From contig NZ_JAOBTQ010000001.1 of assembly GCF_033366695.1 (NCBI RefSeq), forward strand, positions 6,572,001 through 6,636,000: a stretch of DNA of 64,000 bases. The letters are read 5' to 3'. The notes below the pieces were generated by a model, which made no database searches, was not told where the DNA came from, and saw only the letters and a program-made list of their open reading frames with translations. Below, in pieces: positions 12,156 to 22,614 of the stretch (within the stretch, counting starts at the first letter, position 1; every line of letters starts with the position of its first letter). A program made the position numbers and the translations under genes. This stretch comes from Streptomyces sp. SCL15-4. Lineage in GTDB: Bacteria; Actinomycetota; Actinomycetes; Streptomycetales; Streptomycetaceae.

Positions 12156-12305
12156 GACGGCCGGCCTTCCGCAGGACGCCTCGCAGCCGGGCCGGCGGCC
12201 AGGCGCCGATCACCTCGTCCACCGGCGCACTCCCGCGGCAACGCCCCGGCCTCGCCGTCGCCCCGGGCCACGCCTCCAGCCCGGAAACCGCCCCGGAGCA
12301 CGCGA

Positions 12306-12330
12306 AAGGCCCCTGCGGAGCAGGGGCCTT
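12306..12330 (-). terminator. Original terminator of the interrupted tRNA-Leu gene
   Basis: A perfect 11-bp stem (12306-12316 with 12320-12330) and a GGA loop. Read on the minus strand it is followed by a short T stretch and it abuts the displaced tRNA 3' end. It therefore looks like the ancestral terminator of the tRNA now located at 22527-22614. It may also terminate the CapA transcript. Confidence 0.65.
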
Positions 12331-12356
12331 GCTGGTGTCCGAGGGGGGACTTGAAC
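12330..12356. repeat. Left attachment repeat (displaced tRNA-Leu 3' end)
   Basis: 27 bases identical to 22524-22550. On the minus strand they read as the T-loop, acceptor strand and CCA of tRNA-Leu. Sequence beyond the repeat no longer pairs (T-stem broken), so this copy is not a functional tRNA. Confidence 0.93.
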
Positions 12357-12475
12357 TCTCCTCTCGGGCACCAGCCCATAACTACTCTGACCTGGGGAAA
12401 CGCCCGTCGATCGGCTTCATTTCGGCGGGCGCTTCTCCTCTTCTTTCCTGCCGTTTCAGGCCCTCTCGGGCGCCT

Positions 12476-12504
12476 GTTGGTCATGCGTTGGTCACGTGAC
12501 CAAC
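12476..12504. promoter_or_regulatory. Left integrase arm-site candidates and 18-bp palindrome
   Basis: GTTGGTCA occurs at 12476-12483 and 12487-12494. The second copy begins the perfect 18-bp palindrome GTTGGTCACGTGACCAAC (12487-12504), which adds an inverted copy. The same word is duplicated near the right end (22458-22479). Arm-type binding sites of a tyrosine integrase are the simplest reading. Confidence 0.55.
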
Positions 12505-12523
12505 CCTCGGGCCCTGGCCCTGA

Positions 12524-12883
12524 TCAGGACTTTTCGATGACCTCGAAGATATCGGCGTCCGTCTCCTGCTGCCATGCCGGGAGGTCGGGCCAGTCGGCGA
12601 CGTACCCCGGCTTGGGGCTCTCGAAGTGCTTGAACATCTGCGCCGTCCAGCACACCGCCACGAACCGGCCCTTCTGCTCACGAGACAGCTTCGCCGTGTG
12701 ACCGTCACTGATCTCGATGAACCGGCGGACCTGGTCATACACGGCGCCTGCGGCCTCGCGCTCCCACTGGGGCGTGTCCTCCCAGGGAGTGACGTAGCCG
12801 GGCTTCGGCTCCCCCGGGAAGTGGCGGTGCACTCCTTCGATCCAGGCTTCCCGGAACACTCGTGCGCCTTCGACCTGCGACAT
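12524..12883 (-). CDS. Hypothetical protein with an internal duplication
   Basis: A 119-aa soluble protein of no family I recognise. It contains two copies of one module: HFPGEPKPGYVTPWEDTPQW with following helix (residues about 20-56), and HFESPKPGYVADWPDLPAW with following helix (about 84-117), separated by a charged helical linker with LSREQKGRFVAVCW. ATG 12883 has AAGGGG upstream. It starts 15 bases after the XRE-TPR regulator stop, so the two probably form an operon and may act together, for example as regulator and partner or effector. That link is inference from position. Confidence 0.6.
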   Translation of the reverse strand: MSQVEGARVFREAWIEGVHRHFPGEPKPGYVTPWEDTPQWEREAAGAVYDQVRRFIEISDGHTAKLSREQKGRFVAVCWTAQMFKHFESPKPGYVADWPDLPAWQQETDADIFEVIEKS

Positions 12884-12898
12884 GCCAACCCCTTCTCG

Positions 12899-14152
12899 TC
12901 ACGGCGTGCTCAGCGTGGCGATCTCCGCCCCCAGCTCCGCTACCCGGCGGTCCCTGCCTAGGGGGCCGAGCTCATCACACAGGGCTTGGAGTCTACGGGC
13001 GACGAACCCGGACGATGATGCTTGGGCCAACCGGATGGCCTCCCGTCCGTACGCGACGACTTGTTCTGGGTCACGCCGCTTAGCCCCGACGGCGGCCAGG
13101 TCGGCCAGTACGGCGCCCCTGCGCCGGTACGACTGACCGGAGGCAAGGGCGGTCTGGGCCAGTGCCTGCTTCAAGGCTTCCTCTGCCAGATCGAGGCGGC
13201 CAAGCTGTACGTAGCGCGCGCCCCGTTCCTCGGCCAACCGCGTGCCATCGAAGCGCAGCCAGCCCCCGTTGGCGCTGTCCGTGCCCAGTTCCAACACCCG
13301 CTCCGCCTCGTCCAGTGCGCGCTCACACGAGGCCAGGTCGCCAATGCCGGCGTACGCCTCGGCCTGGACAGCGGCGACCCAATGACGGGTGGCGAGGCTG
13401 CTGTCTCCGCGCTGGGCCAGTCTCTCCGCCGCTTCCAGGATCTGCGCGGCCTGCTCGTATCGGTGCTCGTACACGTCCACGTAGGCGTGCCGCACGAGGG
13501 CGCACGCCCACAGGTCGAAGGCTCGGGCGTCCTTACTGACGGACGCCGCCAGGGAGTAGGACGCTGCCGCGTCGGTGTATCGGTTGGCGTCGAAGGCGAC
13601 TTCCCCCGCGAGCTGGAAGAGGTCGGCTGCCGCGTTCAGGAGAGGGCGGGAGTTGCCTCGGGTGTCCGCCAGGGCTTCGTTCAGTGTCGAGAGCTGGTCG
13701 CGGACGATGGGGTAGACGGAGCCCTTGGAGCGGGCTAGCTGGTAGACCTGCCACAGGTGGCTGTTCATCCGCATGAAGTCGGCAGGTGCGCCCCTGCGTA
13801 CTCCGTCGGTGAGGGCTTCCGCCTCATCCAAGGGCAGCGTGGTCAAGGCTCCGCTGACGGTGAGTATGCGGAGGAATTCGCGGCGAATCATTTCGTCAGG
13901 GTCTCCCGCGCCAGGATGGTCATCGGACTGCTGCCCTGGAATTCCCTGGCTGACTCCTCGTGACTGCGCCAGGAGGGCGTCAAGCTCGGTGAGGCTGACT
14001 TCGAGGGCATCGGCCAAGCTCGGTCGCTGGGGCGGCTGAGGGGTGCTTCTGCCGCTCTCCCAACGCCCGATGGTCGTGCGGTCCACTCCGAGTAACTCGG
14101 CCAGTTGCTCCTGACTGTAGCCCAGAGCTTTACGCCGTTCGGCCATGCTCAT
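12899..14152 (-). CDS. XRE-family HTH regulator with TPR-like C-terminal domain
   Basis: A 417-aa protein. Residues 1-65 are an XRE helix-turn-helix (ALGYSQEQLAELLGVDRTTI, then GRWESGRSTPQPPQRPSLADAL). Residues from about 110 on are helical repeats resembling TPRs (SYSLAASVSKDARAFDLWAC, QAEAYAGIGDLASCERALDE). This architecture is abundant in Streptomyces and is reminiscent of Rap/PlcR-type peptide-responsive regulators. Start ATG 14150-14152 has a GGAGAGGGG site; an upstream in-frame extension to 14194 has no homologous look. It is divergent from the cargo operon and has a large palindrome between, so it probably controls that operon. Confidence 0.85.
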   Translation of the reverse strand: MSMAERRKALGYSQEQLAELLGVDRTTIGRWESGRSTPQPPQRPSLADALEVSLTELDALLAQSRGVSQGIPGQQSDDHPGAGDPDEMIRREFLRILTVSGALTTLPLDEAEALTDGVRRGAPADFMRMNSHLWQVYQLARSKGSVYPIVRDQLSTLNEALADTRGNSRPLLNAAADLFQLAGEVAFDANRYTDAAASYSLAASVSKDARAFDLWACALVRHAYVDVYEHRYEQAAQILEAAERLAQRGDSSLATRHWVAAVQAEAYAGIGDLASCERALDEAERVLELGTDSANGGWLRFDGTRLAEERGARYVQLGRLDLAEEALKQALAQTALASGQSYRRRGAVLADLAAVGAKRRDPEQVVAYGREAIRLAQASSSGFVARRLQALCDELGPLGRDRRVAELGAEIATLSTP

Positions 14153-14330
14153 GGCTGCCCCTCTCCGTGACCCGCGCCGCCCTGCCCCGTGCACGGAAGT
14201 GCATCAAGACTGCCCCATTGATGCCGTGGGATGAACGGCCCTCCGGCGCTTTTCTTGGAGTTGTTGCCGAACGGCAGTCGCCCCTGGCTGACCGCTCGGC
14301 GCCGGACCAGGAAGCGACCGACTGACGAGC

Positions 14331-14351
14331 GCGGATCACCTAGTGATCCGC
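14331..14351. promoter_or_regulatory. Perfect 21-base palindrome before the cargo operon
   Basis: Arms GCGGATCAC (14331-14339) and GTGATCCGC (14343-14351) flank a CTA centre, 28 bases before the first cargo start. Size, symmetry and position fit an operator for a dimeric regulator, most simply the divergent XRE-TPR protein. Confidence 0.6.
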
Positions 14352-14379
14352 CCCAAGCCCACCCGGAACGGAGACACAG

Positions 14380-15126
14380 GTGACCAACGTCGACACCGCG
14401 ACGATCACGGTCGAACTGCCCGACGCGTTCGACCCGCGCTGGAACCGCCTGCCCGGCATCACCGTGGACGGCAAGAAGATCACCCTCGACCCGGCCGAGT
14501 ACTTCTTCCGGTTCGAGGCCAACACCTGGCTGGTCATCGACTGGCAGACCGTGACGGACGGCCTGCTGAACGCGGACGAGACCGAGACCGCCACCGTCGA
14601 ACAGATGGCGCTGGAGTTCGTGAAGGCCCACGGCCGCTCGACCAGCGACGCGGGCGAGGTCCTGGCCATCGCCTACCAGGTGTACTCGTACCTGTTCCGA
14701 GACGAGCACCTCGCCACGCTCGGCCTGCCGGACGTCACGGCCGAGCACCTGAAGATGCTCCGCGAGGCGGCCACGTTCATGGCCCTGAACAAGGTCGAGC
14801 TCGACGGCCACATCTCCAACGTGGGCCCGTGCTGGTTCTTCCCCTCCGCGACCGGCGTGGTCTTCGACCTCTCCGACGAGGGCGGCCAGATGCTGGACGA
14901 GGTCTACCACGGCGGGTGGTTCAACGAGCACCGCCGCATCGAGGGCATCAAGGCCCACGCCGCGCTCGGCGGGCGACTGGTTCACGGCTGCCAGTCCAAG
15001 CCCGACCAGACCGGCGGCGTCGTCGCCCCCTACGGCGCGTCGATGGCCACGTTCGGCAAGGAGCTCGCCGAGATGAAGGCCGAGTGGATCGAGCAGGTCA
15101 ACTCCTACCGGGTGACCGCCGCCTGA
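14380..15126 (+). CDS. Unrecognised 248-aa protein, first gene of the cargo operon
   Basis: I do not recognise a family. It is a soluble, acidic 248-aa protein with no signal peptide, membrane segment or obvious catalytic motif. Landmarks are an amino-terminal strand-rich part (ITVELPDAFDPRWNRLPGIT), a helical middle (LEFVKAHGRSTSDAGEVLAI), and a carboxy-terminal half with a Gly/Trp/His-rich stretch (NVGPCWFFPSATGVVFDL, YHGGWFNEHRRIEGIKAH). GTG 14380 has a GGAG site. A strong hairpin follows the gene (15144-15178) before the kinase-like gene, so it could be made in excess over the enzymes downstream and might be their substrate or scaffold; that is speculation. Confidence 0.75.
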   Translation: MTNVDTATITVELPDAFDPRWNRLPGITVDGKKITLDPAEYFFRFEANTWLVIDWQTVTDGLLNADETETATVEQMALEFVKAHGRSTSDAGEVLAIAYQVYSYLFRDEHLATLGLPDVTAEHLKMLREAATFMALNKVELDGHISNVGPCWFFPSATGVVFDLSDEGGQMLDEVYHGGWFNEHRRIEGIKAHAALGGRLVHGCQSKPDQTGGVVAPYGASMATFGKELAEMKAEWIEQVNSYRVTAA

Positions 15127-15143
15127 TCCCACCGTTGATCCAC

Positions 15144-15178
15144 GGCCCGGGGCGGCAAGCGCGCTGTCGCCCCGGGCC
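15144..15178 (+). terminator. Hairpin between the first and second cargo genes
   Basis: An 11-bp perfect stem (15144-15154 with 15168-15178) and a 13-base loop lie in the 91-base gap after the first cargo gene. It may be a partial terminator or an mRNA-stabilising structure that lowers expression of the downstream genes. Confidence 0.5.
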
Positions 15179-15217
15179 TGGCCCCCGACCCACCCCTGAA
15201 CGAACGGAACCGCCCCC

Positions 15218-16135
15218 GTGGACAGCAAGCTCACCGCCGCCATCCTCGCCGACATCTGCGCCCGCACCGGCCAGCCGATCCCCGCCCGCGAGGAGATGCG
15301 GGTGTGGGACATGTCGGGTGTCGAGCGCTTGCGCTTCCCCCCGCACATGCGCACCGCGATCTACAAGTACGCCGTCGAACCGTTCGCCAACGAGGACGAG
15401 ATCCTTCGGGCCGCCCGCCTGTCCGGCATCCCCGTGCCGGAGGTCATCGGCTCCATCGTCCGAGACGGAACCCTCGGCATGGTCATCGAGGACCTGGGCG
15501 AAGAGGTCCGCGAGGCACAGGACACGGATGGCATCGTGGCCGCTGCCGCCCTGCACCAAGCGCCCGCCGCCCCGTCGCTCCGGGAGATGGACGAGGACGC
15601 GCTTGCCGCCCTGCCCGAGCTGGCGCTCGGTCATCTGCGCCGCCTGCGTGATGCCGGCCGCTGGAACGAGGACACCGCCGAGCTGTCGTTTGCGCTTGGC
15701 TCCCTCGCAGCGTCGGCGGAGAAGCGGGCAACTGGTGCTGAGCTGGCCCCGTACGGCTGGGTGCACTCGGAGTTCCACCCGACCAGCCTCCACATCGGCG
15801 AGGACGGCTGGCGCTTGCTCGACTTCGCCCGCGCGTTCACCGGTCCCGGCCTGCTCGACCTCGCGTCCTGGCACGGCACCACTGGTGACCCGGACCCAGC
15901 GAGGCTGCGCGCCTTCATCGAGGCGTACGTGAACGCTGGCGGTGACAAGGACGCGCTTGCCGAGCGCGGCGGCTTGCCTGCGGAACGGTGGGCGCTGGGC
16001 TGGCATCGGGTGTGGGCGAGTGAGTGGTTCATGGAGCAGTCGCTTCGCTGGATCAACAACCCCGAGGATGACCCGCTCTACATCAAGGTCGTCCGTAAGC
16101 ACCTCCTCGCGGCCGTCAGGCTGCTGGAGGCGTGA
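15218..16135 (+). CDS. Aminoglycoside-phosphotransferase-fold protein with altered catalytic loop
   Basis: A 305-aa protein whose carboxy-terminal lobe matches the APH/choline-kinase fold: WVHSEFHPTSLHIGEDGW near residue 185, then LLDFARAFTGPGLLDLASW, equivalent to the usual HGDxHPxN and DFE...GDPxxDLA motifs. The general-base Asp is Glu here, the metal-binding Asn is Ser, and the second motif reads DFA. The amino-terminal lobe has KYAVEPFANEDEILRAARLS and MVIEDLGEE. Activity may be altered or lost, or the protein may bind a substrate without phosphorylating it. GTG start; the next gene begins two bases after its stop, so the two are coupled. Confidence 0.72.
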   Translation: MDSKLTAAILADICARTGQPIPAREEMRVWDMSGVERLRFPPHMRTAIYKYAVEPFANEDEILRAARLSGIPVPEVIGSIVRDGTLGMVIEDLGEEVREAQDTDGIVAAAALHQAPAAPSLREMDEDALAALPELALGHLRRLRDAGRWNEDTAELSFALGSLAASAEKRATGAELAPYGWVHSEFHPTSLHIGEDGWRLLDFARAFTGPGLLDLASWHGTTGDPDPARLRAFIEAYVNAGGDKDALAERGGLPAERWALGWHRVWASEWFMEQSLRWINNPEDDPLYIKVVRKHLLAAVRLLEA

Positions 16136-16136
16136 C

Positions 16137-16805
16137 GTGGATGCCTGGGATGCCCACGCTGCCCAACGCTTGGCAGAGGGCCCGCTACGCCCCCTCGAAG
16201 CGCCCGCTCGGATGGAGTGGACACAGCGCCCCGGCATCGGTCCTAGCGCCGAGATCCTCGGCGACGAACTGGCAGGGCGACGGGTCATGGAATTGGGCTG
16301 CGGACCCGGCCACAACGCCGCCCACCTGACCAGCCTCGGCGCGAAGGTCACTGGAGTGGACCGCTCGGAGGGGCAGATCCAACGAGCGCTCGCCCACTAC
16401 GGACACCACGGAACCGAGTTCGTTCACTCCCGAGCGCTGGGCTACCTCACCCGCGAGAACGGGCGCCTGGACGCCATCGTCTCGGTCTTCGGAGCGATCG
16501 GCCTGGACGAACCGTCGAAGCTGCTCAGCGCCTGCTCCCGCCGCCTCGGGCGCAAGGGCGTGCTCGCCTTCTCGGTACCGCACCCGCAGCGAACCGGCAC
16601 CATCCCCGTCAGCCCTCGCACGCGTGACCGGATGACTCTGCCGGACGGCACCGCCACCACGGTGGACCGATGGGACATCGACCCGGCCGCGTGGGTGCGG
16701 GCACTCAACCGCGCCGGACTGCTGATCACCGGCGTGCAAAACCTGTTCGCCCCGGCTGATGCCCGCTGGCCGACCACCTTGCTCATCACCGCACGGAAGC
16801 CCTGA
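16137..16805 (+). CDS. Class I SAM-dependent methyltransferase
   Basis: A 222-aa protein with motif I VMELGCGPGHNAAHLTSLGA near residue 45, an acidic motif II (VTGVDRSEGQ) and a motif IV region (RLDAIVSVFGAIGL). It resembles small-molecule methyltransferases of the Methyltransf_11/25 groups. GTG 16137 lies two bases after the kinase-like stop with GGAGG in place. No substrate domain is recognisable. In context it probably modifies the same compound or nucleotide as the adjacent kinase-like and HAD proteins. Confidence 0.85.
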   Translation: MDAWDAHAAQRLAEGPLRPLEAPARMEWTQRPGIGPSAEILGDELAGRRVMELGCGPGHNAAHLTSLGAKVTGVDRSEGQIQRALAHYGHHGTEFVHSRALGYLTRENGRLDAIVSVFGAIGLDEPSKLLSACSRRLGRKGVLAFSVPHPQRTGTIPVSPRTRDRMTLPDGTATTVDRWDIDPAAWVRALNRAGLLITGVQNLFAPADARWPTTLLITARKP

Positions 16806-16831
16806 CACCCGACCGAACCCGGGAGGCACCG

Positions 16832-17377
16832 ATGCACCAAGCCCCGTTCCTGCTGTTGGACATAGACGGCGTCTTCATCCCGTTCCCCGGACCGGACGGC
16901 GCCACCCCGGCTACTCACCCCCGCCACACGGTGAGCACTGACGACGTGGCCAAGCCCTTCGATGTCTGGCTCAACCCGGACCACGGCAAGCTCATCATCG
17001 ACGCCATCGGCACCGGACTGGTCCGCCCCGTGTGGTGCACGAGCTGGCGACGCGACGCCCGCCGCATCATCTCCCCGCTCATGGGGTTGCCCGACTTCGA
17101 TCACATCGAGCTGCCCAACCTGCCCATCAAGACCAGCCACCCCGACGGCTACCTGTGGAAGCGCAACCACGTCGCGGACTGGCTGGCCACCGCTCCGGCC
17201 GTGTGGATCGACGACGACTTCACCCGCCTCGATCACCAGTGGGCGGCCGACCGTACCGCGTTCGGAAACCCGACGCTGTTGATCGAGCCCGACCCGCACG
17301 AGGGCATCCAGCCCGAGCACATCGCGGCTGCGCTGGAGTGGGCCGCCGACCACGTGACCATGAAGGAGGCGGCTTGA
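16832..17377 (+). CDS. HAD-fold protein (domain type found in RNA-repair fusion proteins)
   Basis: A 181-aa protein with HAD motifs: LLLDIDGVFIPF (nucleophile Asp and second Asp) at residues 6-17, a Thr/Ser motif in VWCTSWRRDA near 70, a downstream Lys, and the acidic motif VWIDDDFTRLD near 130. The layout matches the HAD domain described in Swiss-Army-knife RNA-repair proteins and in many phage or island proteins. It is a probable phosphatase acting on a nucleotide or nucleic-acid end, but no test is possible here. ATG 16832 has GGGAGG upstream, and its TGA overlaps the next ATG. Confidence 0.8.
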   Translation: MHQAPFLLLDIDGVFIPFPGPDGATPATHPRHTVSTDDVAKPFDVWLNPDHGKLIIDAIGTGLVRPVWCTSWRRDARRIISPLMGLPDFDHIELPNLPIKTSHPDGYLWKRNHVADWLATAPAVWIDDDFTRLDHQWAADRTAFGNPTLLIEPDPHEGIQPEHIAAALEWAADHVTMKEAA

Positions 17378-17565
17378 TGTCGGCTCGACATGCGGCCCCA
17401 CCGGACCGTGACCGACTCGGCACGGTGCTCACCGCGAGTTGGGCCGTGCTCCACCTGCTCGGATTCGCCACGCTCGGCCTGCTATTCCATGAGCGTCCGG
17501 CTGTCGCCGACCATCGGGCGACTCCTGCCGATTCCGTCCCGGACTCGGAGCCTGCGCCCGCCTGA
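17377..17565 (+). CDS. Small single-pass membrane protein
   Basis: A 62-aa protein. The start ATG 17377-17379 overlaps the TGA of the HAD gene by one base (TGATG) and is served by GAAGGAGGC, so translation is coupled. The sequence has a charged head (SARHAAPPDRDRLG), one hydrophobic helix (VLHLLGFATLGLLF) and a polar, acidic tail. No family recognised. It ends the cargo operon and could anchor the system at the membrane. Confidence 0.65.
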   Translation: MSARHAAPPDRDRLGTVLTASWAVLHLLGFATLGLLFHERPAVADHRATPADSVPDSEPAPA

Positions 17566-17670
17566 CCTGCTGTGCGCCCCTGTGCTTGCCTCTCTCGGTC
17601 CTCGCGTGGGCTGGGCGGCCGGGGGCCGTCCGAGCCTCTCAGGTAGGTGCACAGGCCCGTGCATGACAGC

Positions 17671-17694
17671 GGCCCCCAACTGTTGCTGGGGGCC
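17671..17694. terminator. Bidirectional terminator between cargo operon and serine recombinase
   Basis: An 8-bp stem GGCCCCCA (17671-17678) with TGGGGGCC (17687-17694) and an 8-base loop, with partial extension by ACAG/CTGT. It lies between convergent genes. The 153-base gap around it holds no gene. Confidence 0.7.
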
Positions 17695-17718
17695 TGTCTG
17701 TGTCCGTGTGCGCCTGTC

Positions 17719-18552
17719 TCAGGCGCTCTCACCGATGTGCCGGTACAAGGTGGCCCGAGAGATCCCCAGCGCCTTGGCGATGGCGGTGACGCTCTCTCCC
17801 TTGGCGTGCCGGGCACGGGCCACGGCTAGCTTGTCGTCGTCCACGACGGAGGGGCGTCCACCGTGGTTGCCCTTGCGGGCCGCAGTGTCCAGCCCCTCCA
17901 ACGTCTTCTCCCGGATGCCTTCCCGCTCTACCTCTGCGGCCACGGCCAGGACGGCGAACACGATCGCGCCTGCCCCGTTCGGGTCGTACACACCCTGCAA
18001 GGGGCCGGAGAGGAGTTCCAGTTGGATGCCGTCCGCTTGCAAGGTGGACGACAAGGTCATGAGCTCTGCCGCGTTGCGGGCAAGGCGCTTCATCTCGACC
18101 ACGGTCAGGATGACGGGCTGGTTGGGTGCGGCTGTCCTGATCTCCCGAGCGAGGGTGAGTGCCTTGTCCAGTTCCGGCCGTTCCTTCACGCGGGTACTGA
18201 TCTTCTCGGAGAAGACGCGGTGACAGTCGGCACGGGCCAACAGGTCCAACTGGCTGTCTAGTTCCTGCCCGACCGTGGAGCAACGGGCGTAGCCGATTCG
18301 TATTGCTGCGCCCGGTATCGCCTCGGGTGCCTGCACCACAGGGGCGCCTTGCGTCCATGCCTTGCCGGGGTTGCGGTCGGCCGGAGTCTTCACGGCGAGT
18401 TCCGCCTTCAAAGACGGCACGAGGGCGAAGCGGCCCGTGTGGTAGCTCGCTGCCACCTTGCCCGCACTCGTACGGCAGGGGCTACCGGCAGGGGCTTCGC
18501 ACTTCGGGCAGGGGTGACGCTCGACCTGATCGGCCGGGGTGTTCGTGATCAT
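17719..18552 (-). CDS. Serine recombinase (resolvase/invertase) with N-terminal zinc-finger-like segment
   Basis: A 277-aa protein. Residues 12-45 hold CPKCEAPAGSPCRTSAG followed by HTGRF, a zinc-finger-like segment common in Streptomyces plasmid and phage proteins. The resolvase domain begins at about 88 (IGYARCSTVGQELDSQLDLL; the Ser of CST is the nucleophile) and carries VVEMKRLARNAAEL. A Hin-type HTH ends the protein (SVTAIAKALGISRATLYRHI). It probably resolves or inverts element DNA at the adjacent GAGAC-rich site rather than integrating it, because a separate tyrosine integrase is present. Confidence 0.9.
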   Translation of the reverse strand: MITNTPADQVERHPCPKCEAPAGSPCRTSAGKVAASYHTGRFALVPSLKAELAVKTPADRNPGKAWTQGAPVVQAPEAIPGAAIRIGYARCSTVGQELDSQLDLLARADCHRVFSEKISTRVKERPELDKALTLAREIRTAAPNQPVILTVVEMKRLARNAAELMTLSSTLQADGIQLELLSGPLQGVYDPNGAGAIVFAVLAVAAEVEREGIREKTLEGLDTAARKGNHGGRPSVVDDDKLAVARARHAKGESVTAIAKALGISRATLYRHIGESA

Positions 18553-18561
18553 GACCAGACA

Positions 18562-18694
18562 GTCTCATAAACGCGTCTCGAAAGCCAGTCGCGAGACGAA
18601 TCTTTTGAGACGGGTTTCGAGACGCTGGAGTGAGGGCGAAACGGACACACCCCGGAGTCCGGCGGATCGTCTCACTATCGAAGGTTATTGAGAC
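18562..18694. promoter_or_regulatory. res-like recombination/operator region with seven GAGAC/GTCTC motifs
   Basis: Immediately upstream of the serine recombinase, GTCTC occurs at 18562, 18575 and 18669 and GAGAC at 18593, 18607, 18619 and 18690. Two inverted pairs stand out: CGTCTCG (18574-18580) with CGAGACG (18592-18598), and GTCTCA (18669-18674) with TGAGAC (18689-18694). Arrays of inverted subsites beside a resolvase gene are the normal form of a res site and also serve autoregulation. Confidence 0.6.
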
Positions 18695-19296
18695 ACCCTG
18701 TCGTGATCACTCTCCGCGTTGCCCGTGGTCCTGGTGCTCATGCTCGCGACCCCGGACAGTGGGGCGCTGCCGCGCCCCGGCTCGCGCTTGCTCTCTGCCC
18801 TGACTGCCTGCCCTGTCGTGAGGCTGTGCGCCTGCCTGAGCGCCCGCCGCTTCGCTCTCGTCACCTCGGGAGTCGTGCGGCCTGTCGGCCGCTCACAGAA
18901 GCGCACGGCCGTTCGCCTGCCATACGGCACGGGCAAGCCTGCCAACGACGGAGGGAAGGGCAGGGCTCACACCTGCCAGGGCGACGGCGAGACGGAACAG
19001 CCGAGACGTACGAGGCGACGGCGAAGGGGGTGGGGTATGACCCCTAGAGCGGAAAGTCGAGGACCGCCATGTCTTAGCCGCTCAGATCCTGCCACGGTTC
19101 CAGACCTCGTCAGGGCTGCGGCGACCGTAGGCAGCGGCGGAGAAGTAGCAGGTGGGAGCGCTGCGCCTAGCCTGGCCGGCACTCGGAGCCTGCATGAGAA
19201 TGACGGCTTTCGAGGCTTACCGTAAGTGGCTTGGCTCTTTGGCCGCGTGAGCGGCCCACGTCCCTTGCCGCAAGTCGGAGGGGGCTTCCCGCTGCG

Positions 19297-19588
19297 GGGG
19301 CGCGCAGCGCCCCACCTGGCTGGCTTCTTGGCCTTCCTGATGTGCGGCCGGAGGCCGCCCCTGTCGCCTACCTGTTCGCCGTCGCGCTTGCCGTTTGATG
19401 GGGGCGCTGCGCGCCCTACTTCCCTTCGCCGCTGCACGTGAGTGCGTACTTGGCTTCCCGCTGTCGGCCCCCTTGGGGCCGCCTTGTCGAAGCGGCTTTC
19501 GACTGTGCGGCCGGAGGCCGCGACTACTGCTTACCTCTTCGCCGCTGAACGTACGTAAGTGTCTTCGTCCGTCGGCCCCGAGAGGGGC
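19297..19588. repeat. Array of six short GC hairpins
   Basis: Perfect stems with mostly 3-base loops lie at 19297-19313, 19344-19358, 19402-19416, 19466-19480, 19507-19521 and 19575-19588, spaced roughly 40-70 bases. The second and fifth are identical (TGTGCGGCCGGAGGCCGC). The words TTCGCCGCT and GGCTTCCCGCTG also recur between them. This is more regular than chance hairpins in GC-rich DNA. Confidence 0.6.
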
Positions 19589-19666
19589 ACAGGCTCGTAG
19601 GGCTTTGAACCTACTGAGATAGATAAAGAGGAGACGAACGTTTGCCCAGGTCAAGGCATAGACCAC

Positions 19667-19729
19667 GACACGCGGGGCGTGTCCCTCCGCCACGCCTGAC
19701 GTGTACTTTTCGGGAGTTTGTACACGTGG
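19667..19729. promoter_or_regulatory. Two adjacent perfect dyads
   Basis: GACACGC (19667-19673) pairs with GCGTGTC (19677-19683), and ACGTGTAC (19701-19708) with GTACACGT (19722-19729). They lie between the hairpin array and the end of the small winged-helix-like gene. Candidate replication or regulatory sites. Confidence 0.4.
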
Positions 19730-19756
19730 CGCGTGTCGGCCTGCGCGGGCGCTCGC

Positions 19757-20131
19757 TCAGGCCGCGCGTGTCCAAGGTCTGGCGTCGCCGTGCACGCTGC
19801 ACCTGCGGCCCCCTCGGCCGCCCTTCTGGAAGTGGTGATGGGGCAGGGTGAGGCACCGGACAGTTGAGTCGTGCCCGACGAGGGTCAGCGCTTTCGCTCG
19901 GCCGACCGCGTTCGTGACGCTCTGCCTGGACGGAATGACCCCGTCATCACTGGCGAGGATTCCGGCTAGCTCACCGATGCGGAACTCGGCGTGACCTATC
20001 TGGTTCGCCCTCCACAGGGCGGCGAAGTAGACGCGGTAGGTCAGGGGGTGCCGATCGTCCCTGGCCATGCATTCGCACTGCGCCTGAGAGAGGCCGCCCC
20101 ACTCGATGCCGGGTCCGAAGTCGATGCGCAC
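19757..20131 (-). CDS. Hypothetical protein, possible small winged-helix DNA-binding protein
   Basis: A 124-aa protein of no recognised family. Residues about 30-95 (YRVYFAALWRANQIGHAEFR, IGELAGILA, SRQSVTNAVGRAKALTLVGH) have the look of a helix-turn-helix with a wing, and the tail is basic. It is on the minus strand below the excisionase-like gene, in the replication/excision side of the element, so a regulatory or replication-initiation role is possible but unproven. Confidence 0.5.
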   Translation of the reverse strand: MRIDFGPGIEWGGLSQAQCECMARDDRHPLTYRVYFAALWRANQIGHAEFRIGELAGILASDDGVIPSRQSVTNAVGRAKALTLVGHDSTVRCLTLPHHHFQKGGRGGRRCSVHGDARPWTRAA

Positions 20132-20209
20132 TGAGTCGTGGTCCTTCCCGTGTGGCGCGGTGTGCGCCGGTAGTCGGTGGTTCGCATGTGCTCCCTTCTG
20201 GTAGGCACG

Positions 20210-20227
20210 GCCAGCCGTCAGGCTGGC
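20210..20227. terminator. Hairpin after the excisionase-like gene
   Basis: GCCAGCC (20210-20216) and GGCTGGC (20221-20227) with a GTCA loop, just beyond the stop of the excisionase-like gene. No U-run. Confidence 0.45.
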
Positions 20228-20245
20228 TTGGGAGTGGGACTCAGG

Positions 20246-20428
20246 TCAGGCGGCTTCCCGGCAGTCCCGCTCGATCCAGCGGTCTACGTCGGCGGGCCGG
20301 AAGCGGAGGTGTCCGCCGATCTTGCAGGCGGGGATGTTGAGCGCTCGGTGGTTGTTGTAGACCCACGCGGGCGTCACGCCCAGGTACTCGGCCAGGTCGG
20401 CGACGCTCATCAGGCGGGCGTTCTGCAA
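20246..20428 (-). CDS. Excisionase-like small HTH protein
   Basis: A 60-aa protein with the MerR/Xis-type helix-turn-helix of the HTH_17 family: SVADLAEYLGVTPAWVYNNH, then a strand ending IGGHLRFRPADVDRWIER. Such proteins act as recombination directionality factors beside tyrosine integrases in Streptomyces elements. I use the TTG start at 20426-20428 because GAGGAG precedes it; the ATG at 20408-20410 would give a 54-aa form without a good ribosome site. Probable excisionase for the integrase at 21161-22438. Confidence 0.82.
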   Translation of the reverse strand: MQNARLMSVADLAEYLGVTPAWVYNNHRALNIPACKIGGHLRFRPADVDRWIERDCREAA

Positions 20429-20528
20429 AGGACGGCTCCTCGGTTAACGGAGGGGAGGGTTCCCCTCGGGCTGCTCATCCTGAGCTATCAGTCTGGTTCA
20501 GTCAAACCCGGATGCGTCACACCTTGAC

Positions 20529-20557
20529 TTGCCTGATGCGGTTCAGTTCCGTACGTT
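20529..20557 (+). promoter_or_regulatory. Promoter for the hypothetical gene upstream of the integrase, probably leaderless
   Basis: TTGCCT (20529-20534), a 17-base spacer and TACGTT (20552-20557). The ATG of the next gene is eight bases after the -10 element, which fits a leaderless transcript. This transcript would also carry the integrase gene. Confidence 0.4.
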
Positions 20558-20564
20558 GTCGACC

Positions 20565-21128
20565 ATGACGAAACCCAACGACCACGAGGGCGGCGCTGCG
20601 CCCCGTCCGGGCCTCACGCATGTCCAGCGCATCGGGGCGTGGAAGGTCACCATGTGGCTTCCGCTCGACTCCACATCGGCCAACCCCCGCGACATCCGGA
20701 TCGAGCCGCACGAGGATGCCGACCTGCAAGAGGTGGCGCGCGGCATCACCAGCACGATCCTGCGGCAGATCGACACGACCGCCTTCGCGGAAGAGGTGGG
20801 GCCGCTGGCGGAGCTGGCCCGTGCTGGCCAACGGGAGGCCGAGAAGTTCCGGCGGGAGCTGGCCGGCCTGCCCAAGGGGGTGTCGGACGAGTACCTCGCG
20901 GTGATCTCCGCCCTCTACGTGCGCTTCGTGAACGCCGGGCGGACCGCTCCCGCCCAAGACCTTGAGTGGTGGACGAGGACGAAGCAGGCCACGTTGAAGG
21001 GCCACCTCCGGGCAGCGCGACAGCGCGGCTTCCTGACCAAGGTCGAAGGCAAGGCGGGCGGGCAGCTCACCGACAAGGCGATCGAGATTCTGAAGAGGAC
21101 CAGTGTCAGTAACGTGCGACTGCCGTAG
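20565..21128 (+). CDS. Hypothetical protein upstream of the integrase
   Basis: A 187-aa protein, no family recognised. The middle is a charged helix (EVARGITSTILRQIDTTAFA, LARAGQREAEKFRRELAGL), and the carboxy-terminal third resembles a winged helix (EYLAVISALYVRFVNAGRTA, KQATLKGHLRAARQRGFLTK, AGGQLTDKAIEILK), as in proteins that control phage or element excision. I start at ATG 20565, eight bases after a TACGTT box. It is 32 bases before the integrase start and probably in the same transcript. Confidence 0.68.
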   Translation: MTKPNDHEGGAAPRPGLTHVQRIGAWKVTMWLPLDSTSANPRDIRIEPHEDADLQEVARGITSTILRQIDTTAFAEEVGPLAELARAGQREAEKFRRELAGLPKGVSDEYLAVISALYVRFVNAGRTAPAQDLEWWTRTKQATLKGHLRAARQRGFLTKVEGKAGGQLTDKAIEILKRTSVSNVRLP

Positions 21129-21160
21129 CGGACAGGGCAGAGGGAGGGGGAACTAGCCGG

Positions 21161-22438
21161 GTGGCAAAGCGCGGCAACGGGCTCGGTGGGACTCCGGTGG
21201 AGATCCCGCGTACGGGCCGACCGAACACCTGGGGCGTGCGTACGCCCCTGCACTTCAATCCGGCAACAGGTAAGAGGGAGCGCTACTGGATAGGCCGGGA
21301 GTACAAGAACAAGACCGAGGCGGAACGGGCGCTGCGCAAGTGGCACACCGACCACGAGGCAGGCACCCTCACGCCCCGCTCCGACATGACCATGGGACAG
21401 CTCATGGACGGCTGGCTTGCCAAGCATCGGGGCGAGGACACCACGAAGGAGGGGTACGAGCCGAAGATCCGGCTGCACATCAAGCCGCACATCGGCAGGG
21501 CGAAGGTGGTGGAGGTGACGGACGAGCGGCTGGACGAGCTGTACCGGCTCCTGGAGAGCACGCCCATCGAGGCGAACGGCAACAAGCCGCTCGGACCCAA
21601 GAGCGTCCGCCACATCCACAACATCATCTCGGCCGCGCTGGACTCGGTGACCGGACCGAGGAAGCTCCTCGCGGTCAACCCCGCCCACACTGCCAATCCG
21701 CCCACGGAACGGCAGATCAAAGCGGCACAGCCGGACTTCCCCACGCTCAACGATCACGAGACGGGGCGGTTCCTGGCGGACATCTGGAAGCCATGCGGCA
21801 ACCGGGCCTGTGACGGCGGGCTGACTCACCACTGCCTTCGGGACGCCCCGCTGTGGACCTCGTACGCGGCCACCTCATGCCGACGCAGCGAAGTGCTGGG
21901 GTGGAAGTGGTCGCTCATCCACTGGGATGAGTGCGCCATCGAACTGGCCTGGGTCGTAGTCGAAGAGGGCAACACCTACCGGCTGCGCAAGCTCACCAAG
22001 GATGGAGACGACAACGCGATCATCTACGTAGACCAAGCCCTGATGAACGTCCTCAAGTGGCAGAAGGAACGCCAGGACGCGGAGCGGGAACGCCTCGGGG
22101 ATCTCTGGGTGGACCATGATCTCGTCTTCGCCCGCGACGGCTTCAAGCTGTACCGGGGCGAAGCAGGCGGACCACAGGACCCCGAGAAGGTGTCGGCCCG
22201 CTGGCGGACGGCACGCAACCGTCTGCACCTGCCGGAGAACTTCCGGCTGCACGACTGGCGGGCATCGAAGATCACGAACGATCTCGACAATCACGAGAAC
22301 CCGGTAGAGGTCTCGGCCAACGCCCGGCACCACTCGCCGGGCTACACCATGGCGCGCTACGGCAGGCGTCGCGCCGAAGGGGCGAAGAAGCTGGCCGCTT
22401 CCAGCGCTGCCCGAATCGGCCTGTCATCCCTGGTCTGA
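21161..22438 (+). CDS. int: Tyrosine recombinase (integrase) of the element
   Basis: A 425-aa phage-type integrase. The amino-terminal AP2-like arm-binding domain contains KRERYWIGREYKNKTEAERA. The core-binding domain follows (MTMGQLMDGWLAKHRGED). The catalytic domain has the first Arg in SCRRSEVLGWKW near residue 243, Lys in RKLTKDG, HxxR as LHDWRASKI near 364, and HHSPGYTMARYGRR with the His and the nucleophilic Tyr near 400. GTG start. It ends next to the attachment repeat in the tRNA, the standard arrangement, so it catalyses insertion into and, with the excisionase, removal from tRNA-Leu. Confidence 0.95.
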   Translation: MAKRGNGLGGTPVEIPRTGRPNTWGVRTPLHFNPATGKRERYWIGREYKNKTEAERALRKWHTDHEAGTLTPRSDMTMGQLMDGWLAKHRGEDTTKEGYEPKIRLHIKPHIGRAKVVEVTDERLDELYRLLESTPIEANGNKPLGPKSVRHIHNIISAALDSVTGPRKLLAVNPAHTANPPTERQIKAAQPDFPTLNDHETGRFLADIWKPCGNRACDGGLTHHCLRDAPLWTSYAATSCRRSEVLGWKWSLIHWDECAIELAWVVVEEGNTYRLRKLTKDGDDNAIIYVDQALMNVLKWQKERQDAERERLGDLWVDHDLVFARDGFKLYRGEAGGPQDPEKVSARWRTARNRLHLPENFRLHDWRASKITNDLDNHENPVEVSANARHHSPGYTMARYGRRRAEGAKKLAASSAARIGLSSLV

Positions 22439-22457
22439 CCAGGAAGTTCGCTCGGCT

Positions 22458-22479
22458 GTTGGTCACGTGGTTGGTCACG
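22458..22479. promoter_or_regulatory. Right integrase arm-site candidates
   Basis: Two direct copies of GTTGGTCACG (22458-22467 and 22470-22479) lie 45-66 bases inside the right attachment repeat. The same word occurs inside the left end. In the excised circle these sets would flank the core on both sides. Confidence 0.55.
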
Positions 22480-22497
22480 CCACAGCCGGAGAAACAG

Positions 22498-22520
22498 AAA
22501 AACCCCAGATCAACTGGGGT
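22498..22520 (-). terminator. tRNA-Leu terminator supplied by the element
   Basis: On the minus strand, stem ACCCCAG/CTGGGGT (22514-22520 with 22502-22508) with a 5-base loop is followed by TTTTT, directly downstream of the tRNA. It replaces the ancestral terminator now stranded at 12306-12330. Confidence 0.8.
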
Positions 22521-22523
22521 CTC

Positions 22524-22550
22524 TGCTGGTGTCCGAGGGGGGACTTGAAC
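22524..22550. repeat. Right attachment repeat (tRNA-Leu 3' end)
   Basis: 27 bases identical to 12330-12356, covering the T-loop, acceptor strand and CCA end of the tRNA. The element carries these bases, so insertion leaves the tRNA whole. Confidence 0.93.
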
Positions 22551-22614
22551 CCCCACGCCCGATAAAGGGCACTAGCACCTCAAGCTAGCGCGTCTGCCAT
22601 TCCGCCACCCGGAC
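22527..22614 (-). tRNA. tRNA-Leu (anticodon GAG)
   Basis: 88 bases including an encoded CCA. The acceptor stem GTCCGGG pairs with CTCGGAC, the anticodon arm is GCTAGC-TTGAGGT-GCTAGT giving GAG, a long variable arm follows, and the T arm is GGGGG-TTCAAGT-CCCCC. It reads CUC/CUU codons. It hosts the integrative element at its 3' end, which the element reconstitutes. Confidence 0.95.

Follow-up and report, generated by a model that had tools for sequence, protein, structure and literature searches.

How does an integrative element move between Streptomyces strains when it carries an integrase and no gene recognisable as part of a conjugation system or a virion? This question is raised by a 10.2-kb element of Streptomyces sp. 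SCL15-4, bounded by an exact 27-bp direct repeat (12330-12356 and 22524-22550) at a tRNA-Leu(GAG) gene. It lies in a stretch of 64,000 nucleotides (positions 6,572,001 to 6,636,000 of contig NZ_JAOBTQ010000001.1), here called the window, whose own numbering we use throughout; the 12 called genes of the element are designated g1 to g12 (Table 1). We compared these genes with family libraries, namely Pfam for 11 of the 12 (the integrase was left out) and PHROGs, NCBIfam and PADLOC for 10 of the 12. Pfam and PHROGs revealed no recognisable terminase, portal or capsid gene in the element, and none of the proteins scanned matched a relaxase, FtsK-like Tra or RepSA-like family. A preliminary description of this DNA had delimited the element by its att repeats in the tRNA gene, a terminal integrase and an excisionase-like gene, and had stated that it is not a standard actinomycete integrative and conjugative element (AICE). 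All of this holds: both repeat copies are exact, ARAGORN finds the tRNA, the integrase (g12) and an excisionase-type helix-turn-helix (HTH) gene (g10) are present, and the 10-11 proteins scanned gave no match to a conjugation or replication family. What that description overlooked is a phage packaging (cos) site in a gene-free stretch (19026-19110), as well as the element's membership in a family whose members swap cargo. From its sequence, we consider the element likely to be a cos-type phage satellite that is packaged by a helper.

The gene-free stretch comprises 1.2 kb (18553-19756) without a recognised gene, and a DNA search with it found copies of positions 474-551 in genomes across the genus. 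An iterated DNA profile built from this block gave 31 matches (one locus counted twice) and matched the joined genome ends of six of six Arquatrovirinae phages (Joe, Izzy, phiCAM, Yosif, Lannister and Celia), with nothing better than E 2 for three control Streptomyces phages (phiSASD1, Ibantik and phiC31). Because this first profile held prophage copies, we rebuilt it without four known prophage loci and, separately, from five tRNA-Leu satellites only. Both rebuilt profiles still find all six joined ends, well over 450 dinucleotide shuffles; the five-satellite profile does so at E 6e-16 to 6e-6 (19-51 bits), with none of the three controls at E 1 and a best shuffle of 7.7 bits. Base 1 of the phage genomes falls at the same profile column in five of the six (three by separate matches, two from sequence ends), the exception being Joe, whose record starts with a duplicated end. 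When the window's own 56 bases were compared by blastn with 50,697 phage records (E 10), 15 of 24 matches were to Streptomyces phages and base 1 of ten such records (seven phages) was matched, with weak individual E-values (0.03 to 1); the other nine matches, to other viruses, look like chance. The TerL of one prophage locus (L159) is 78-84% identical to 60 phage records of 48-51 kb among the matches listed, which are Arquatrovirinae wherever taxonomy was read. Judged by these comparisons, the block is an Arquatrovirinae cos site. A reading of the stretch as a structured RNA was dropped, as it folds no better than shuffles (z -0.18).

In the records of Joe, Izzy and Yosif the gene preceding TerL is annotated as a minor tail protein, the name of phrog_226; the L159 gene concerned lies at 12709-13143. 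A protein of L114, a relative of the element, resembles by eye the phrog_226 member of L100 and matches the Terminase_7 small-subunit model, so that the tail name is perhaps a widespread mislabel.

The cos block occurs in 39 of 295 genomes of the genus, at 46 sites at E 1e-5 (a count that includes the profile's 26 source sites where their genomes were drawn), and once in the genome of SCL15-4; one cos site was found in the window element. In eight prophage loci an HNH gene follows the block at a distance of 0.6-3.3 kb, and in seven of them TerS, TerL and portal genes come after it. Many cos loci have genes like g8 (a serine resolvase) and g9 beside the block, accompanied by differing integrases. 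Among 51 cos matches in the fetched loci (L072 and L119 being one locus), a g8-like resolvase lies within 7 kb of 25, and TerL, TerS or portal matches accompany none of them; seven have TerL, and none of these has a g8-like resolvase. That the 25 resolvase-bearing loci show no Arquatrovirinae-type terminase within this distance suggests multimer packaging followed by resolution. Other cos matches are found with HNH and a partial TerS at a locus end (L079), with g9 and no resolvase (L091, L167 and L173), with a large serine integrase only (L228 and L240) or together with HNH (L239), and with a short TerS match plus a DUF6879-DUF5753 pair (L241).

Relatives gathered by integrase alignment comprise 32 named Streptomyces loci; 28 have the tRNA-Leu(GAG), and 17 have two att cores (at most 6 mismatches, inside the fetched stretch). 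They form two branches that share the integrase and a left end of about 175 bp. In the branch of the window element (g8 is present in eight of the 28 clustered regions), g8, the non-coding stretch and g9-g12 are retained, often together with g1-g2, and the interval between g2 and g8 is swapped. Its cos is present in eight of 11 scorable members (the window element, L090, L091, L092, L093, L113, L119 and L074); in the other three (L094, L096 and L076) deletions run through the cos region, and L095, on too short a contig, was left out of the scoring. In the second branch the integrase is 73-88% identical. Of the 28 regions, eight hold a major head protein of one type (phrog_267; in L099 at E 3e-43), L097 holds another type, and ten hold a DUF3987-primase cluster (two members scanned). 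L114, the member scanned with Pfam, has a small terminase (PF25673, E 2.5e-7); no TerL or portal was seen by eye in the gene lists of L101 and L114. This capsid-bearing branch (L114:6239-7603, L099:6843-7751, L097:6883-7788), similar in size, may be a further satellite type. Applied to 30 more loci, namely capsid-branch elements, other relatives and the cos-less L073, L076, L094, L095 and L096, the cos profile gave no match below E 0.78. In S. albipurpureus (G211:C56) a single tRNA-Leu site seems to hold two satellites in tandem, L074 and L120, and the integrase of the first is shortened.

The swapped interval holds varied genes. In L090 (3390-6456) it contains an apparently complete lasso-peptide set: besides an Asn synthase (PF00733, E 1e-34) as the presumed cyclase and a GNAT acetyltransferase, both of which L093 and L119/L072 also have, it includes a transglutaminase-like protein (PF13471, E 2e-17) as the presumed protease and a peptide of 42 aa that resembles a precursor, its core judged by eye. 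In L092, L094, L096, L113 and L076 the cargo pairs a JmjC oxygenase with an APH-like protein; of these L092 alone was scanned, its APH match (E 4e-4) being under the cut-off. The shortened L074 carries a radical SAM protein. In L106 (4843-6822) the cargo encodes a bacterial RNase A domain on a WXG100-type protein, beside a CdiI-type immunity protein.

Despite the swapped cargo, the six elements of the window branch in which both cores and cos are present (the window element, L090, L092, L093, L113 and L119) keep a near-constant size of about 10.35 kb (mean 10,354 bp, standard deviation (SD) 111); capsid-bearing elements average 11,031 bp (SD 171, n=8). Both means leave out L094 (11,887 bp, mosaic, no cos), L120 (10,905 bp, no capsid gene called) and L099 (second core not found), as well as L096, L105, L076, L088 and L074, which are short. 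Four element copies would amount to 40.8-42.1 kb and five to 51.0-52.6 kb, against 48.4-50.7 kb for the helper genomes (43 lengths). The ratio of nonsynonymous to synonymous substitution (dN/dS) of the integrase is 0.06-0.16 against all seven sisters compared, and such purifying selection means that the enzyme has been kept working. These observations bear on the possibility that the element is the degenerate remnant of an Arquatrovirinae prophage whose cos persisted by chance. A prophage remnant would account for the phage cos, the phage-type HTH gene and the visible decay of some sisters (L096, L076, L105 and L113), yet we regard it as very unlikely: the same architecture without recognised structural genes, at near-constant size, is found in several species, the integrase is under purifying selection, and the same cos and g8-like resolvase recur in elements with unrelated integrases.

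Comparison of ends and empty sites supports the precise boundaries given earlier. The right repeat is the 3' end of the tRNA gene, because the single intact tRNA-Leu(GAG) occupies 22527-22614 on the minus strand. A 22-nt core, GTGTCCGAGGGGGGACTTGAAC (12335-12356), is common to all 20 left and 19 right ends aligned; since the bases preceding it differ among the ends, the five extra repeat bases of the window element are a coincidence in this strain. A comparison of relatives for an uninterrupted tRNA-Leu with the terminator directly behind it, as suggested in the preliminary description, revealed an empty site, matched through the junction, in three of 60 relatives searched, SCL15-4 itself aside (G016, G020 and G003). 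Identity is 87-90% over positions 4-273 of the 273-nt joined-flank query, and in all three the 12305-12330 terminator lies directly 3' of the tRNA; the remaining listed relatives matched parts of the query, mostly the tRNA. The outcome that would have counted against the element by that description, no empty site in any relative, thus did not arise. Arm-type repeats (GTTGGTCA) are present at both element ends across the tRNA-Leu family, the first left one in 19 of 20 left ends aligned (exception L108). At the right, 16 of 19 ends retain (by eye) a CCCC...GGGG hairpin, some of whose changes are paired; the hairpin scan gave no excess over shuffles (3 patterns vs 3.3). The Rfam scan returned the tRNA alone, plus one match far under the gathering score.

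Table 1. Features of the tRNA-Leu element and its borders (window numbering).
Feature	Positions	Strand	Basis
Host terminator hairpin, displaced by the insertion	12305-12330	-	Sequence; adjoins tRNA in empty sites G016, G020, G003
attL core repeat (core common to family 12335-12356)	12330-12356		Repeat search, end alignment
Left arm-type repeats GTTGGTCA, two direct and one inverted; putative integrase arm sites	12476-12504		
g1, 119 aa, no family	12524-12883	-	Library scans
g2, NsdA-family XRE-TPR regulator	12899-14152	-	NCBIfam NF053720 E 4e-47, over cut-off
g3, 248 aa, conserved unnamed family	14380-15126	+	484 proteins at E <=0.001, own included; no Pfam
g4, 305 aa, phosphotransferase-like by motif	15218-16135	+	No family at E 0.1
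g5, S-adenosylmethionine (SAM)-dependent methyltransferase	16137-16805	+	PF13649 E 2e-12; GTG start inferred
g6, HAD_SAK_2 domain	16832-17377	+	PF18143 E 2e-6, barely over cut-off
g7, 62 aa, no Pfam family	17377-17565	+	
g8, serine resolvase with N-terminal zinc finger	17719-18552	-	PF00239 E 1e-25, PF24623 E 6e-13
cos packaging site of Arquatrovirinae phages (by sequence), 85 bp, non-coding	19026-19110	+	Profile vs phage genome ends; phage base 1 = 19076
g9, 124 aa, winged-helix-like (by eye), no family	19757-20131	-	Near cos in many loci
g10, excisionase-type HTH	20246-20428	-	PF12728 E 8e-13; TIGR01764 over cut-off
g11, phage HTH DNA-binding protein, start inferred	20565-21128	+	phrog_11473 E 1e-27
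g12, tyrosine integrase	21161-22438	+	Annotated integrase homologues
Right arm-type repeats GTTGGTCA	22458-22477		End alignment
Terminator-like hairpin brought by the element, behind tRNA-Leu	22498-22524	-	Hairpin scan; right-end alignment
attR core repeat	22524-22550		Repeat search, end alignment
tRNA-Leu(GAG), intact, attachment gene	22527-22614	-	ARAGORN

The cargo of the window element is the enzyme operon g3-g6. Homologues of g3, present in 34 of 199 genomes of the genus, are named hypothetical protein among the matches listed, two of them also aminoglycoside phosphotransferase in one source. We tried to assign g3 a fold and claim no function for it, its AlphaFold2 model having a mean pLDDT of 60.6 and no PDB match at E <=0.001. 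The motif WVHSEFHPTS of g4, a protein which we take to resemble APH phosphotransferases, is invariant among homologues, and because HSEFHPTS is present in all 30 stretches compared, that of SCL15-4 among them, g4 is a conserved variant and not a decayed kinase. Our best guess, made with low confidence and at less than even odds, is that the operon modifies small molecules or peptides to the advantage of the host. Outside the cargo, g1 is 87-97% identical in the sisters that carry it, g11 matches 15 mycobacteriophage records at about 31%, and g12 was recognised from annotated integrase homologues and from presumptive catalytic residues.

Copies of g3 also stand alone, and five of six such copies lie near shared mobilisation-type genes (L080, L081, L082, L085 and L089), the one scanned, that of L080, being a Pfam Relaxase (E 1e-8). 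In L070 the g3 operon, 93% identical in DNA to that of the window, lies beside another cos copy and near a large-serine-recombinase-like gene. The g3-g6 operon may thus travel on several kinds of mobile element. These relaxase-like neighbours of operon twins, and the lack of a transfer gene of its own, would suit an integrative element moved by conjugation with the help of a plasmid or AICE, its cos being incidental. We give this possibility little credence, a shade less than the prophage: no relaxase or FtsK-like family was matched by the proteins scanned, a comparison of the non-coding region with 72,556 plasmid records returned nothing at E 1e-5 (nor does g9 have matches among plasmids), and cos is kept in all scorable sisters except those with deletions through it.

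Among known systems, pSAM2-type AICEs are about 11 kb long, integrate at tRNA 3' ends and have a tyrosine integrase and xis, and the window element resembles them in all four respects; it differs in that no FtsK-like Tra or RepSA-like family was matched. AICEs are defined by an FtsK/SpoIIIE-like transfer protein together with a RepSA- or RepAM-type initiator, neither of which the library scans found in the element. Phage-inducible chromosomal islands (PICIs) in the strict sense have a primase-replicase module and a fixed gene order; here no primase family was matched and the gene order differs. Three features of a cos-type satellite were found: site-specific integration, the cos of a helper phage group (by sequence) and no recognised virion or terminase genes of its own. 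Ccm, which some Staphylococcus aureus pathogenicity islands (SaPIs) encode, is a capsid-protein homologue.

The closest parallel is EcCICFT073, a cos-type PICI of E. coli without capsid-size genes, for which one report (PMC6092414) proposes that several copies enter full-size heads, cos sites being skipped. The window element is likewise an integrated island that carries a phage cos and lacks capsid-size genes. The two differ in host phylum, in helper and in gene content, and EcCICFT073 has two cos sites, against one found here. No resolvase is mentioned in the passages considered, whereas the window element has g8; if several copies are packaged as in EcCICFT073, a resolvase would return the multimer to single copies. 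The cos SaPIs also carry the cos of their helper, and in a second report (PMC5052747) the cos SaPIs identified encode Ccm, SaPIbov5 uses small capsids, and concatemers of a shortened one are said to enter large capsids. Unlike them, as described there, the window element has no recognised capsid gene, though its sister branch has one. Of the satellites known from Streptomyces, MulchRoom and MiniFlayer, according to PMC10690885, have genes of their own for TerS, TerL, portal and capsid; they carry direct terminal repeats and use BE-cluster helpers. The window element shares with MulchRoom a Streptomyces host and a tyrosine integrase; none of those four genes was recognised in it, and it carries an Arquatrovirinae cos.

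The cos SaPIs are reported to interfere with their helpers (PMC5052747), and the cos described here might be a decoy that titrates phage terminase on what is mainly an anti-phage island, in which the XRE-TPR regulator and an unnamed enzyme operon would be at home. We consider this the least probable explanation: PADLOC matches are to generic domains only (the HTH of the RmrA, capH and mad1 models and the methyltransferase of mad2, E 2e-15), the mobility genes would be left unexplained, and a decoy role is in any case compatible with a satellite.

If the element is a satellite, infection by an Arquatrovirinae phage would lead xis and int to excise a circle, which would replicate into a concatemer to be cut at cos by the helper terminase. 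Four or five copies (about 41-53 kb) would fill a helper head whose normal content is about 48-51 kb. Once injected, the DNA would join at its cohesive ends, the g8 resolvase would cut the multimer to monomers and int would insert one of them at tRNA-Leu. The g2-g8 slot would carry cargo, here an enzyme operon under the XRE-TPR regulator, presumably useful to the host. The capsid-bearing branch may package monomers in small heads of its own, as cos SaPIs do.

Several points weigh against this model. Packaging, induction and transfer of the element are predictions from sequence, and similarity to the cos core does not in itself prove a working terminase-binding site. No replication gene, primase or initiator family was matched in the element by the library scans. 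The integrase frame of L113, which is among the six elements sized, is broken, and that element is probably no longer mobile. A constant size does not hold for every cos element and we rejected it as a general rule, since four with a large serine integrase look roughly 6-8 kb long (estimated from gene positions); these smaller elements neither support nor exclude multimer packaging. The terminase comparison used one query per type and 7 kb on each side, some loci being shorter; a DUF6879-DUF5753 pair stands alone near eight of the 51 cos matches (L158, L160, L162, L163, L226, L235, L237 and L238), and three (L161, L233 and L242) have none of the queried genes nearby. Only two relatives came from IMG/VR, their integrases being 69-76% identical. 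The genome of SCL15-4 shows no Arquatrovirinae-type TerL, the single match to that query being 35% identical; this other TerL-like gene is L182 (G000:C1:2572708-2574000).

Among the papers listed by searches of open-access literature we found no report on satellites of Streptomyces or Actinobacteria of this kind, on Streptomyces cos satellites or on satellites with biosynthetic clusters; subscription papers and preprints lay mostly outside this scope. We tentatively put forward, as an idea that could prove right but that we hold at less than even odds, that the family is a delivery vehicle for small biosynthetic sets, among them the apparently complete lasso-peptide set, inserted through one slot: concatemers of four to five copies would enter Arquatrovirinae heads by way of a captured cos and be split by a dedicated serine resolvase, the sister branch, with its own capsid and TerS, would package monomers without a resolvase, and phage predation would move antibiotic-type genes between Streptomyces species. 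If this is true, the 85-bp profile finds the carriers, and the two packaging strategies can be compared among elements with related integrases. Common Streptomyces phages would then move natural-product operons, and operons of unknown enzymes, between species by a specific route.

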